64,000 bases of DNA from Lutibacter oceani (GTDB lineage: Bacteria > Bacteroidota > Bacteroidia > Flavobacteriales > Flavobacteriaceae), in contig NZ_QTTQ01000010.1 of NCBI RefSeq assembly GCF_003384935.1, forward strand, positions 124,001 to 188,000, written 5' to 3'. The translations under genes and the position numbers were made by a program. This document shows positions 56,572-62,964 of the stretch, one piece after another; within the stretch, counting starts at the first letter, position 1; every line of letters begins with the position of its first letter. The notes beneath the pieces are model-generated. The model was not told the DNA's origin. It did no database searches and saw nothing but the letters and a program-made list of their open reading frames with translations.

Positions 56572-56694
56572 AAAGTATTTATTTTTCTTTTTTAGTAAGT
56601 TAATAACCACACTTTTATATTTGCAAATTACAAATTCTTATTGAACTATCATTTTTAACAATAAAAAAATACATTCGTTAAAACACATTTAATG

Positions 56695-56702
56695 TACATT
56701 TG
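56695..56702 (+). promoter_or_regulatory. Putative -7 box of the MFS transporter gene, leaderless-like
   Basis: TACATTTG ends 4 bases before the ATG at 56707, so the transcript would start at the coding sequence. It rules out the upstream in-frame ATG at 56692 as a start. Confidence 0.45.
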
Positions 56703-56706
56703 CAAA

Positions 56707-57930
56707 ATGTTAAAAAAGAATCCTTCCCAATTAGAATTTATTGCATTAATGGCCTCTTTAATGTCCGTTGTGGCTTTAGCCATAGACGCTTTATTACCAG
56801 CACTGGATTTAATTGGAATCTCAATTGGTACTGTTAATGTAGTTGATAATCAGCTATTAATAACTATGATTTTTTTAGGACTTGGACTTGGGCCATTAGT
56901 TTTTGGTCCTATTTCAGATAGTTTAGGTAGAAAACCCATTGTTTATATGGGGTTTGGTATTTTTATTATCGCCAGTTTTATTTGTGTTTTTTCAGAAAGT
57001 TTAGAAATGATGGTTGCTGGAAGAATTTTACAAGGAATTGGACTTTCTGCACCAAGAACTATTAGTATTGCAATGGTACGTGATACTTATAACGGAGATT
57101 ATATGGCACGAATTATGTCGTTTATAACTGTAGTTTTTCTATTAATACCTATCATTGCCCCTGCCATGGGAAAATTTGTACTTGATCATTATAATTGGCA
57201 AGCAATATTTTATATTCAGCTGATATTTAGTGCTTTAGTTTCTTTTTGGTTTTGGAAAAGACAACCGGAAACTTTACATATTGAGCAACGGATAAAATTT
57301 ACAAGTCATATTTTTGTTAACGGTTTAAAGGAAATTTTAAAATCTAAAGCAACTGTTGGATATACCATTATTTCTGGGTTTATTACAGGTTCTTTTATGG
57401 TGTATTTAAGTACAGCACAACAAGTTTTTCAAATTCAATACGATTTAAAAGAGCAATTTCCATATATATTTGCTGGGATTGCAATTTCCATAGGAACTGC
57501 TACTTTTTTAAATGGAACCCTTGTTTTAAAATTTGGAATGGAAAAAATGGTAATCTATTCACTTATTGCATTTTTTGGTTTGTCTTTAATTTATAGCGTT
57601 TTATTTTATAGTACTCCTAATCCGAGCATCGTTATTTTATTAACCTTTTTAGGGTTGCAATTTTTTGCTATTGGTTTTTTGTTTGGGAATTTAAGAGCAC
57701 TGGCAATGCAGCCTATTGGACATATTGCCGGAATTGGAGCCGCAATTACAGGGTTTATTTCAACAATAATGGCTGTTCCAATAAGCACCTTTATTGGCAG
57801 GTTTGTTTCAGGTACAGCTTTACCTCTATTTATGGGGTTCTTAATTTGTAGTGCTTTATCTATTGCTATACTTTTTTATTTAAGAACAGTTAAGGAACAA
57901 ACTAAAGCTATGGTTGAAAATACCAATTAA
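56707..57930 (+). CDS. MFS drug exporter, Bcr/CflA type
   Basis: 407 residues when started at 56707, with about 12 hydrophobic helices. FGPISDSLGRKPIVYMG (about 67-83) is the MFS A-like signature with Asp and Arg/Lys; GRILQGIGLSAPRTIS is the motif of the Bcr/CflA drug-resistance group. The C-terminal helices are complete. Substrates in relatives include bicyclomycin and chloramphenicol; none can be assigned here. The TAnnTTTG box directly before the start is strong for this position. Confidence 0.88.
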   Translation: MLKKNPSQLEFIALMASLMSVVALAIDALLPALDLIGISIGTVNVVDNQLLITMIFLGLGLGPLVFGPISDSLGRKPIVYMGFGIFIIASFICVFSESLEMMVAGRILQGIGLSAPRTISIAMVRDTYNGDYMARIMSFITVVFLLIPIIAPAMGKFVLDHYNWQAIFYIQLIFSALVSFWFWKRQPETLHIEQRIKFTSHIFVNGLKEILKSKATVGYTIISGFITGSFMVYLSTAQQVFQIQYDLKEQFPYIFAGIAISIGTATFLNGTLVLKFGMEKMVIYSLIAFFGLSLIYSVLFYSTPNPSIVILLTFLGLQFFAIGFLFGNLRALAMQPIGHIAGIGAAITGFISTIMAVPISTFIGRFVSGTALPLFMGFLICSALSIAILFYLRTVKEQTKAMVENTN

Positions 57931-60561: not shown

Positions 60562-60680
60562 TTTCTTTTTTGTTAAGTTATTTTTTTTAGTTAAATACTT
60601 TTATCAAAGGTATACAATTCCTTAATTCATTTTATTTTTTGAATAAATTTTTTATGTTAAAATTCAACCTTTTGAAAGTG

Positions 60681-60688
60681 TATATTTG
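60681..60688 (+). promoter_or_regulatory. Putative -7 box of the pseudouridine synthase gene
   Basis: TATATTTG, 4 bases before the ATG at 60693, so the mRNA would be nearly leaderless. Confidence 0.4.
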
Positions 60689-60692
60689 CTGA

Positions 60693-61388
60693 ATGAAAAT
60701 TGAAATTCTTTTTGAAGATTCCTATATTATTATAGTAAATAAACCTAATAATGTTTTAATTCATAATTCATACTACGCTAGAAATATTAAAGATGATACT
60801 TTATTAAATTTACTAAAAAAACAGTTTGGAAATGACTTTTATCCTGTACATAGGCTGGATAGAAAAACTTCAGGTGTATTGGTTTTATCTAAGCAAAAAG
60901 AACATGTTTCCGTTTTTCAGGAATTGTTTAATTCAGATACTATTGAAAAAACCTATTTTGGCATTGTACGTGGTTTTTTTAAAGAAAATGTGTTGTTAAA
61001 TTCTCCTGTAAAAAATCCTGATACTAAACTTTATAAAGAAGCTGAAACATATTGTGAACCATTACAAAATATTGAACTTAAAATACCTGTACATCCGTAT
61101 AATAATTCCAGGTACAGCTTAGTTAAATTAAAACCTTCAACTGGAAGAATGCATCAACTAAGAATTCATATGAATAAAATTAGCCATCCTATTGTGGGAG
61201 ATTATAAATATGGTGATCGTTTTCATAACCGCATGTTTGAAAATGAATTTAATTGTTCAAATTTATTTTTACACGCTTTTGAAATAAAATTTGTGCATCC
61301 TTTTAATAAAAATGTAATTTTAATTAAGGCGAGTTTTCCTGATAATTGGAAATTTATTTTTGAAAAATTTAACTGGAAGGTTCATTAA
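60693..61388 (+). CDS. RluA-family pseudouridine synthase, TruC-like
   Basis: 231 residues, isomerises uridine in RNA. The catalytic motif HRLDRKTSG (53-61) contains Asp56; GRMHQLRIHMNKISHPIVGD (about 150-169) is the C-terminal family signature. It has no N-terminal S4 domain, which fits TruC (tRNA U65) among the RluA subfamilies, but the target nucleotide is not certain. It lies just before the tandem RNA repeats, which begin 4 bases after the stop codon. The mRNA would be almost leaderless. Confidence 0.85.
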   Translation: MKIEILFEDSYIIIVNKPNNVLIHNSYYARNIKDDTLLNLLKKQFGNDFYPVHRLDRKTSGVLVLSKQKEHVSVFQELFNSDTIEKTYFGIVRGFFKENVLLNSPVKNPDTKLYKEAETYCEPLQNIELKIPVHPYNNSRYSLVKLKPSTGRMHQLRIHMNKISHPIVGDYKYGDRFHNRMFENEFNCSNLFLHAFEIKFVHPFNKNVILIKASFPDNWKFIFEKFNWKVH

Positions 61389-61453
61389 AAAAAACCGTTT
61401 TTAAGTCTTTATCTGTTTATTAATTGATTGCTGAATTTTGTATAGTATCTACT

Positions 61454-61648
61454 AAATTTGTCAACTTTCACCCCAATAAATCAACAAATTTATTAGATTA
61501 AAATAAATAACTCACACATCTTTTAATTAAATATCACGTACATATTTAATTATTATTAAAGATTTGTTAATTTTTTATTATACAATTTCCCAAAGACCAA
61601 AAACCTAAAAACGGTACTATTAACTTTTATATTTTACTAAACCGTTTT
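61454..61648 (-). ncRNA. Candidate structured RNA, unit 1
   Basis: On the minus strand three hairpins form, in 5'-3' order: ACGGT/ACCGT (61608-61615 with 61641-61648); ATATTTAAT/ATTAAATAT with loop GTACGTG and an outer ATCTTT/AAAGAT (61518-61563); and a 14-bp stem at 61454-61491 with loop ATTGGGGTGA. The 14-bp stem is uninterrupted on the minus strand with three G-U pairs, but broken by A-C mismatches on the plus strand. No reading frame is conserved. No known RNA family is recognised. Confidence 0.5.
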
Positions 61649-61698
61649 CAAATTTTAATTTTATAATCAATAATTGAATTTCGTACAAAACATTTACT

Positions 61699-61889
61699 AA
61701 ATTAATTAATTTTCACCCCAATAAATTAATTAATTTAAAACGTTTAAATAAATAACCTACGCATCTTTTAATTAAATATCACGTACATATTTAATCATTA
61801 TAAAGACTTGTTAGTTTTTTATTACACAATACATCAAAGATCAAAACCTAAAAACGGTTATTTTACTTTTGTTTTTATTAAACCGTTTT
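61699..61889 (-). ncRNA. Candidate structured RNA, unit 2
   Basis: Same three hairpins as unit 1: ACGGTT/AACCGT (61851-61859 with 61881-61889), the GTACGTG loop hairpin (61763-61807, outer A-U of unit 1 replaced by G-U) and a perfect 14-bp stem 61699-61712/61723-61736 with the identical loop ATTGGGGTGA. Two stem positions changed on both sides together relative to unit 1 (T-A to A-T, and G-C to A-T). Confidence 0.5.
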
Positions 61890-62090
61890 CAAATTCTAAG
61901 ATCATTTTTATTATTTTCAAAATAAATATAAAAGACAATTATAAAAAATTTATTATCCCAATGTATTATCTTTTTATAATAATTATAACTCAAGTTTTTA
62001 TCATCATTCCCACCACTTTAAAAAGAAATATTTGAAGTAAATAACTGATTTTTTTATATTAATTTCAAAGAACTAAAATTTAAAAACGGC
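61890..62090. repeat. Degenerate third repeat unit
   Basis: It shares the unit start AACCGTTTTCAAATT, ATTTCAAAGAACTAAAATTTAAAAACGG at the end, and a TTCCCACCACTTTAAAA stretch in place of TTCACCCCAAT. The two main hairpins are not kept. The only reading frame here, 75 codons from 61808, spans the repeats and is judged spurious. Confidence 0.4.
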
Positions 62091-62111
62091 TAGCATATTA
62101 GTGCTATATTT

Positions 62112-62558
62112 TTATTTCATTAATAATTTTTGTTTTTTATCTAATTTCATTATAAACAAAACTAATTCAAATACTTGCTGTTTTATGTATTTAAAATTTT
62201 GTATATAATTTTTTACTTCATTTAATAAAAGTTCATGTGTTTTTCTAAAATCATTCTCTTTTTTTAAATAAATATTTTCAAGAAGCAAAGCTAAATTCAT
62301 TCTATGGTCTTTTATAGATTTTTTCAACTCACTTCCTAATTTACTTTCGTGAGCTATACCATTTAAAAACAGTTTTGCTTTATTAAAATTGTCAGTTTCA
62401 CATAAACCTATAATATAATCTGTAAGTAATTCATTTAAAAATTCTTGCTCTATTTTTATGAATTCAATTTCTGATAGCCAATCGTTTGTTTCATTTTGTA
62501 GCTGTTCAATACTACTATTGTAAAATGACTTGTTTTGTTTTGGGATAATTTGTTTCAT
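62112..62558 (-). CDS. Hypothetical helical protein
   Basis: 148 residues, no signal or membrane helix. The whole chain is rich in Leu, Lys, Glu and Ile with heptad-like spacing (EFIKIEQEFLNELLTDYIIG, then LALLLENIYLKKENDFRKTHELLLNEV) and is probably an antiparallel helical bundle. I do not recognise the family. It lies between the tandem RNA units and the response regulator-CRP fusion, all on the minus strand, which suggests a linked regulatory role but does not prove it. A 5' leader hairpin precedes it. Confidence 0.5.
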   Translation of the reverse strand: MKQIIPKQNKSFYNSSIEQLQNETNDWLSEIEFIKIEQEFLNELLTDYIIGLCETDNFNKAKLFLNGIAHESKLGSELKKSIKDHRMNLALLLENIYLKKENDFRKTHELLLNEVKNYIQNFKYIKQQVFELVLFIMKLDKKQKLLMK

Positions 62559-62964
62559 AATTCATTAATTTTAAGAGTTTAAAGAATCCGAAAGGTTTAT
62601 TTTCAGAACCCTTCGGATTCATTAAAGAAGATTAGTTAACTTGAATTACTTTTTTTGTGCCTTGTAGGTTTTCAAAACATTTAATCCAAAAACATCTAAA
62701 TTTTTTGAGATACACAATCAATTCTCCATATTCACTCTCACCCTAATGTTCCAACTAAAATAAATACTTTTTGGTAAAGTATTTATTACTAATGGAGTTT
62801 TAAAATTCGAGCTATAAAACCTTCTTCTTTTTCTTTTTACAAACCTTACTTAAGTAAAACCTATAATTGAACTTAATTTATGATACTAAAGTAGTTTAGC
62901 GAATAACTAATTGCAATGACCACAATCATTTTTTAGACTGATTGTAATCATATTTAATAAATAA
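62559..62964 (-). other. Long leader region with hairpins upstream of the helical protein gene
   Basis: About 406 bases without a gene. It holds three inverted repeats: GAATCCGAAAGGTT/AACCCTTCGGATTC at 62584-62620, AAATACTTT/AAAGTATTT at 62762-62784, and ACAATCA/TGATTGT at 62922-62945. The last has two G-U pairs only on the minus strand and lies 20 bases after the response regulator stop codon. A stretch ATTAGGGTGA (minus strand) resembles the ATTGGGGTGA loop of the tandem RNA units, without its stem. Confidence 0.4.
62584..62620 (-). promoter_or_regulatory. Leader hairpin upstream of the helical protein gene
   Basis: A 14-bp stem with a 9-base loop. The single non-pair on the plus strand (A with C) becomes G-U on the minus strand. 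It ends 26 bases before the start codon and has no U run, so attenuation or protein binding is more likely than termination. Confidence 0.4.

Follow-up and report, generated by a model that had tools for sequence, protein, structure and literature searches.

Tandem structured RNA units behind a single gene: an undescribed RNA family of Lutibacter

In type III toxin-antitoxin systems (ToxI), tandem structured RNA units accompany one small gene, the RNA repeats lying upstream of the toxin gene; OLE RNA is a structured RNA tied to a protein partner and to stress. Structured RNAs located behind bacterial genes are known in few cases, and a 2010 survey describes control through a structured 3'-UTR domain as "highly unusual in bacteria" (PMC2864571). 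In position, the RNA described here comes closest to the L17 downstream element (RF01708), which the survey places behind a ribosomal protein gene in Lactobacillales and Listeria and proposes to act in the 3' UTR of its mRNA (PMC2864571). Structured RNAs of Bacteroidota include 6S-Flavo (RF01685) and Flavo-1 (RF01705), the latter tabled in the same survey as not cis-regulatory (PMC2864571).

How does the Lutibacter locus compare? We analyzed a window of 64,000 nt from Lutibacter oceani in which tandem structured units follow a gene for a 148-aa protein; they represent an undescribed, genus-level structured RNA family of Lutibacter, with an uncommon tandem arrangement at the 3' end. Like the L17 downstream element, this is a structured RNA behind one gene, but the phylum and the kind of gene differ and the Lutibacter RNA has no Rfam match. 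Like 6S-Flavo, it is a structured RNA of Bacteroidota; unlike 6S-Flavo, it has a three-way junction and does not match RF01685, the genome's one match to that family being at another locus (G000:C2:322827-322933, 102.7 bits). Flavo-1 gave no match at its gathering score and none in a permissive scan of 61300-62200, and OLE RNA, described as an RNA of ~600 nt from Bacillota, gave none in the Rfam scan. The contrast with ToxI is one of order and dependence: the Lutibacter units, ~220 nt each, lie downstream of the gene in all 30 loci that hold both, 3 of 33 loci have the gene but no units, and the 148-aa protein has no match in Pfam or NCBIfam. The preliminary description of this DNA had taken the RNA to be of no described family; in the whole window, no family of Rfam 15 reaches its gathering cut-off, and the permissive scan returned three matches to unrelated families (E 3.1-6.7). 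No paper on any Lutibacter RNA was found in the open literature searched.

The array and its neighbors

About 700 bases of A+T-rich DNA separate the 148-aa gene from a pseudouridine synthase gene and contain three tandem units. The features are listed below with the bit scores of R1, a covariance model of 225 positions and 75 pairs built on the consensus fold of nine close type A units, and with the z-scores of the folding energies.

60693..61388, plus strand: RluA/TruC-like pseudouridine synthase gene, the convergent neighbor, outside the RNA
61387..61394, minus strand: terminator-like U-run of eight U, directly after U1
61395..61614, minus strand: RNA unit U1, last and 3'-most (R1 42.4 bits, E 7.2e-8; z -5.46)
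61454..61491, minus strand: hairpin P4 of U1, loop AUUGGGGUGA (pairs checked letter by letter)
61531..61545, minus strand: apical hairpin of P3 in U1, ACGUGA in the loop (from the fold and a helix of the sequence-only alignment)
61642..61857, minus strand: RNA unit U2, the middle one (R1 45.8 bits, E 1.1e-8; z -4.39)
61699..61736, minus strand: hairpin P4 of U2, loop AUUGGGGUGA (pairs checked letter by letter)
61776..61790, minus strand: apical hairpin of P3 in U2, ACGUGA in the loop (from the fold and a helix of the sequence-only alignment)
61883..62089, minus strand: degenerate RNA unit U3, first after the 148-aa gene (full-length R1 match, weak at 7.4 bits)
62112..62558, minus strand: 148-aa gene, upstream of the RNA; predicted three-helix bundle

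Two tandem units of about 240 bp had been reported in the preliminary description. The direct repeats are there, spaced at 244-245 bp with spacers of 25 and 27 nt, and U1 and U2 are 80% identical; the two units seen were real, and what had been missed was the degenerate U3 and the link to the 148-aa gene. U3 retains mainly the terminal stem, has no exact loops and scores below the R1 matches listed in the window at E up to 1; it shares with the other units a 24-nt end (repeat family D3), and its position corresponds to that of unit c of L055, which R1 matches at 41.3 bits. At the other end of the array, the U-run overlaps the stop codon of the convergent synthase gene. The claim that no reading frame is conserved also stood: inspection of the sense ORFs of 28 units, the longest of which measure 8-46 aa and differ in their starts and ends, revealed no shared peptide, and the ORFs that cross the loop read FIWGE in several units and FIGVK in others, the loop shifting by one base.

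Fold, covariation and strand

Each unit is closed by a terminal stem of ~20 bp (P1); the consensus further comprises a junction stem (P2) in a three-way junction, hairpins P3 and P4 and a small P5, with ACGUGA in the loop of P3 and UUGGGGUGAAA in that of P4. For U1 and U2 alike, none of 200 dinucleotide shuffles folded as well as the unit; the fold of U3 is modest (z -2.29, matched by 5 of 200 shuffles). For some single units, e.g., both L055 units, the minimum-energy fold departs from the consensus within P1. In P4, the loop ATTGGGGTGA is the same in U1 and U2, and two stem pairs differ on both sides at once, U-A becoming A-U and G-C becoming A-U. All 14 pairs of the U2 stem are Watson-Crick; in U1 the minus strand forms 11 Watson-Crick and three G-U pairs, and the plus strand 11 pairs and three C-A/A-C mismatches. 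Checked letter by letter, P4 thus bears out what had been said of this hairpin: an unchanged loop, two compensatory changes, and three U1 mismatches that become G-U pairs on the minus strand.

Does the covariation extend beyond two copies? R1 finds both U1 and U2, neither of which was in its training set, at E 7.2e-8 and 1.1e-8 in 182 kb searched, and it weakly matches some type B units (L055 unit c, 41.3 bits; L066, 27.3; L069, 22.4), which is why types A and B are probably paralogues. When 21 R1 matches are aligned, 47 of the 75 pairs change on both sides (shuffle mean 23.6; 0 of 500 shuffles reach this count) and 90.4% of the cells can pair (shuffle mean 79.7%; again 0 of 500), whereas sliding the partner by 1-3 columns cuts pairing to 38-54%. 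This alignment (A5) is fitted to R1 and so favors the structure; two further checks were therefore made, one on non-training sequences and one on a sequence-only alignment. The 11 sequences left after removal of the nine training sequences and the near relative L095 have both-side changes in 45 of 75 pairs (shuffle mean 23.9, maximum 33) and 87.8% pairing against a shuffle mean of 73.0%. In an alignment of 28 units by MAFFT only, 11 of the 15 pairs of P1a and the P3 tip change on both sides, against a shuffle mean of 4.3, with 95.4% pairing against 87.8% in shuffles. From the same unfitted alignment RNAalifold predicts 17 pairs, 11 of them with both-side changes, covering P1a, the P3 tip and two pairs of P4 but neither P2 nor the remaining helices. 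All these shuffles keep relatedness in, so the covariation figures are not probabilities. Compensatory changes that exceed both shuffled and slid controls are what is expected of a structured non-coding RNA, and the proposal that structure is kept while sequence drifts holds outside the training set; homologues with covarying stems occur in most of the Lutibacter genomes examined.

The preliminary description had also assigned the RNA to the minus strand, and the RNA is the minus strand: folding energy, G-U pairs and the closing U-run all agree. Compared with its reverse complement, the minus-strand sense has the lower energy in all 28 type A units, each with a sense z-score of -3.4 or below (60 shuffles each), and in 11 of 12 type B units. 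In 12 non-training sequences, G-U cells outnumber A-C cells 107 to 11, a test biased by R1 itself allowing G-U. The R1 scores of U1 and U2 reach 42-46 bits on the minus strand, whereas no plus-strand score exceeds 9, and the 10 nt that follow the array hold on average 7.4 T, compared to 4.6 on the other side (27 loci). In other loci some units match R1 on their reverse strand too, at lower scores (L065, 28.5 vs 221.3 bits); the closest contest is the second unit of L057 (28.0 vs 38.6 bits).

Distribution within and beyond the genus

Of 60 related genomes, 21 were hit by blastn with U2, mostly over 24-50 bases; these short matches were treated as chance, and the good ones (L005, L006, L010 and L011) lie between the same two flanking genes. 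The search was then anchored on the 148-aa gene, which has a match at E <= 0.001 in 36 of the 38 genus genomes. With a cut-off of at least 49% identity, 34 genomes retain 35 places counted as orthologues, and the weaker matches are paralogues (G014 is counted twice, as L067 and L048, its listed contamination being 6% and two versions lying on two contigs). The downstream DNA can be read in 33 of the 35, G013 and G027 being cut by contig ends. In 30 of these 33 loci the RNA stands just behind the 148-aa gene on the same strand, the placement of a bacterial 3'-UTR element, with one to three tandem units (three in L. flavus, locus L033; L067 has an internal deletion, and L075 a type B unit only). 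The first unit starts 7-32 nt past the stop codon of the 148-aa gene in 25 of 27 loci, the exceptions being L075 (59 nt) and L079 (138 nt). Close relatives of the 148-aa protein with a source name are mostly from Lutibacter, and relatives at 25-37% occur in other Flavobacteriaceae.

The gene stands without the RNA in the remaining three loci (G018, G036 and G017; empty sites L071, L076 and L139), and in G018 and G036 the genes are just 25-28 nt apart. The orthologue is missing in four of the 38 genomes (G004, G005, G007 and G023), and of these only G023 has the RNA according to the model search. Because each occurs alone, neither the 148-aa gene nor the RNA strictly needs the other. At the G023 locus (L095, positions 1-343) the RNA lies beside the pseudouridine synthase, and its terminal stem has altered bases at the start; immediately before the RNA, an unrelated reading frame that may come from an insertion element seems to stop. 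A midpoint-rooted tree of the two flanking proteins, some deep branches of which are poorly supported, joins G018 and G036 as sisters and nests the pair next to the RNA-bearing G030; loss in this pair is therefore the simplest reading, simpler than the RNA being not yet gained. Arrays of two or three units occur in three separate clades. The RNA has thus been kept through the genus, with independent expansions and losses, tied to one gene in an apparent stress cassette.

Might the array instead be a decayed MITE-like mobile element with 20-bp terminal inverted repeats, duplicated in place? The terminal stem resembles inverted repeats, the copies are in tandem and three loci lack the RNA. Such an origin is scarcely credible, however: beyond the array, its own genome holds one match only (48 bases, 82%); R1 matches in 20 of the 38 genus genomes are every one at this locus (the whole-genome search scores at most 59 candidates per genome and missed the copy in G016, L081, 56.4 bits); the tree favors loss over not-yet-gained for G018 and G036; and the RNA has covariation and a strand bias. 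Of the functions floated in the preliminary description, the selfish repeat is accordingly disfavored, no dispersed copies having been seen and the place behind a single gene being constant; a regulator and a protein sponge are both candidates.

Searches beyond Lutibacter did not detect the RNA, although one of them, the whole-genome model search, overlooks genuine copies inside the genus as well. With that limit, R1 matched in 299 family genomes only the L. oceani genome itself and, at 26.2 bits, G105, where the stretch looks coding by eye and the match was judged spurious. A loop-and-end pattern has a match in 3 of 397 family genomes, those in G161 and G284 being chance by eye; a pattern scan of genome contigs gave 17 stretches, five of which are the RNA (L033, L035, L039, L044 and L048) and 12 chance, also by eye. 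In 28 loci of 148-aa relatives from other genera, no R1 match is better than E 1.2. The best eight pseudouridine-synthase loci of other genera gave six weak matches: the best, L151 (22.8 bits, 36 bases), lies away from the gene end; L150 (14.6 bits, 55 bases) is near the gene end on the wrong strand; and L148 (11.3 bits, 66 bases, E 0.26) has the expected place and strand and is insignificant. The whole array found no match in phage and plasmid collections, and viral contigs gave none to the loop-and-end pattern.

The neighbors vary. The pseudouridine synthase was not found downstream in L078 (within 900 nt), L081 (758 nt) or L138 (~1600 nt), and since the RNA is present in all three, it seems not to need the synthase. 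In L138 (G025), a gene that by eye resembles the MFS transporter of window positions 56692-57930 appears after the RNA in place of the synthase. Upstream, in-frame tblastn over 30 loci detected a full-length Hsp20 gene in 15, a partial one in three and none in 12, and a response regulator-CRP gene lies within the 1.5 kb upstream examined in 14 of 30. In the window, Hsp20 was not found upstream by in-frame tblastn; by eye, 62632-62900 resembles the end of an Hsp20 gene, at the place where a complete Hsp20 stands elsewhere, and we guess it to be a remnant. In two other genera (L146 and L148), what appears by eye to be an E1-beta dehydrogenase gene abuts the synthase, and in L005 such a gene appears upstream of the cassette; this suggests that the cassette was inserted in an ancestor of Lutibacter.

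A probable 3'-UTR RNA with conserved loops

What does the RNA do? We think it likely, on balance, that the Lutibacter family is a terminator-coupled 3' UTR of the 148-aa mRNA whose loops bind a partner. That the RNA is the 3' end of this mRNA is probable because it starts 7-32 nt after the stop codon and has no recognizable promoter: just upstream of the RNA, 27 loci score 6-8 against a general Bacteroidota promoter consensus, one taken from outside this data set, with a background of 5-9 inside the gene. Nor does any ordinary terminator lie in 60600-62700 to part the RNA from the gene. The units would be transcribed as the untranslated end of the 148-aa message, from an operon that may be of the stress type, Hsp20 being its frequent upstream neighbor; the terminal stem and U-run would end the transcript; the folded units would then stay on the mRNA as a 3' cap or be cut off as a stable small RNA; and one or two conserved loops per unit would bind a partner, protein or RNA, with unit number setting the dose as tandem copies multiply the sites. 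Counting against the stress link, a full-length Hsp20 stands upstream in just half of the loci (15 of 30), and the search did not detect it in the window. For work on the function, species whose arrays have three, two, one or no units provide a natural comparison.

The same promoter scores bear on a rival reading in which the RNA is a small-RNA gene in its own right, driven from a promoter in the 3' part of the 148-aa gene and working in trans through base pairing or by binding a protein. The structure and sequence of the RNA are conserved separately from the mRNA, it persists without the 148-aa gene in G023, and Flavobacterium psychrophilum has a small RNA, Rfp18, reported as conserved, likely strongly folded and needed for precise protease expression (PMC9723704). 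The promoter scores just before the RNA do not exceed those within the gene, however, albeit for a general consensus, and we hold a separate gene to be unlikely.

Termination is central to another reading, in which the RNA works solely in cis at the 3' end: an outsized terminator of the operon and barrier to its decay, its loops incidental, that would also keep the convergent gene free of antisense transcription. A U-run does follow the last unit, the convergent gene ends at that U-run, and no ordinary terminator was found in 60600-62700; the U-run is present, but the closing stem spans ~220 nt, which is not the form of an intrinsic terminator, a short G+C-rich hairpin followed by such a run. 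A mere barrier, however, needs neither a three-way junction, nor a kept P4 loop, nor tandem copies, and the RNA remains in the three loci where the convergent gene was not found adjacent. Both the barrier and the antisense role, taken as the whole function, strike us as rather unlikely.

The partner-binding 3'-UTR reading leans on the loops. Among 28 type A units the P4 loop is exactly TTGGGGTGAAA in 13 and has one change in 12, so that UUGGGGUGAAA is kept exactly or with one change in 25; L081 has two changes, L082 three, and in L074 the loop is degenerate and the best pattern match falls elsewhere. ACGUGA closes P3 in many, not all, units. The 5' arm of the terminal stem is overall at least as well conserved as its pairing partner, most of all around TTCTTTG, and may for this reason carry sequence information besides pairing. 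Counting against a bound partner, loop conservation could stem from folding needs alone.

A more specific idea, which we consider very improbable, is that the P4 loop might mimic a Shine-Dalgarno (SD) sequence. Against CACCUC in the canonical 3' tail of 16S rRNA, GGGGUG can form pairs throughout, one of them G-U, and the L079 variant GAGGUG pairs perfectly. In Bacteroidia, bS21, bS18 and bS6 are described as masking the anti-SD within the ribosome, and the absence of bS21 as exposing it (PMC9976891); if the mimicry were true, a stress mRNA tail with one to three such loops could seek bS21-free ribosomes or, alternatively, compete with rpsU mRNA for them. Against it, the variants GGGGUA, GGGGUU and UGGGUG exist, the L074 unit has lost the loop, and the L. 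oceani assembly yielded no 16S gene whose tail could be compared.

Arrays of two species split the loops between their units: in L057 (1104-1252) and L063 (2186-2336), the first unit has GGGGUG and the second the ACGUGA-like CGUGAC. In L079, a loop-like remnant, TTGGGGGTAAAA, lies between the 148-aa gene and the only full unit (1418-1482; R1 12.5 bits, E 0.85), perhaps a decayed unit.
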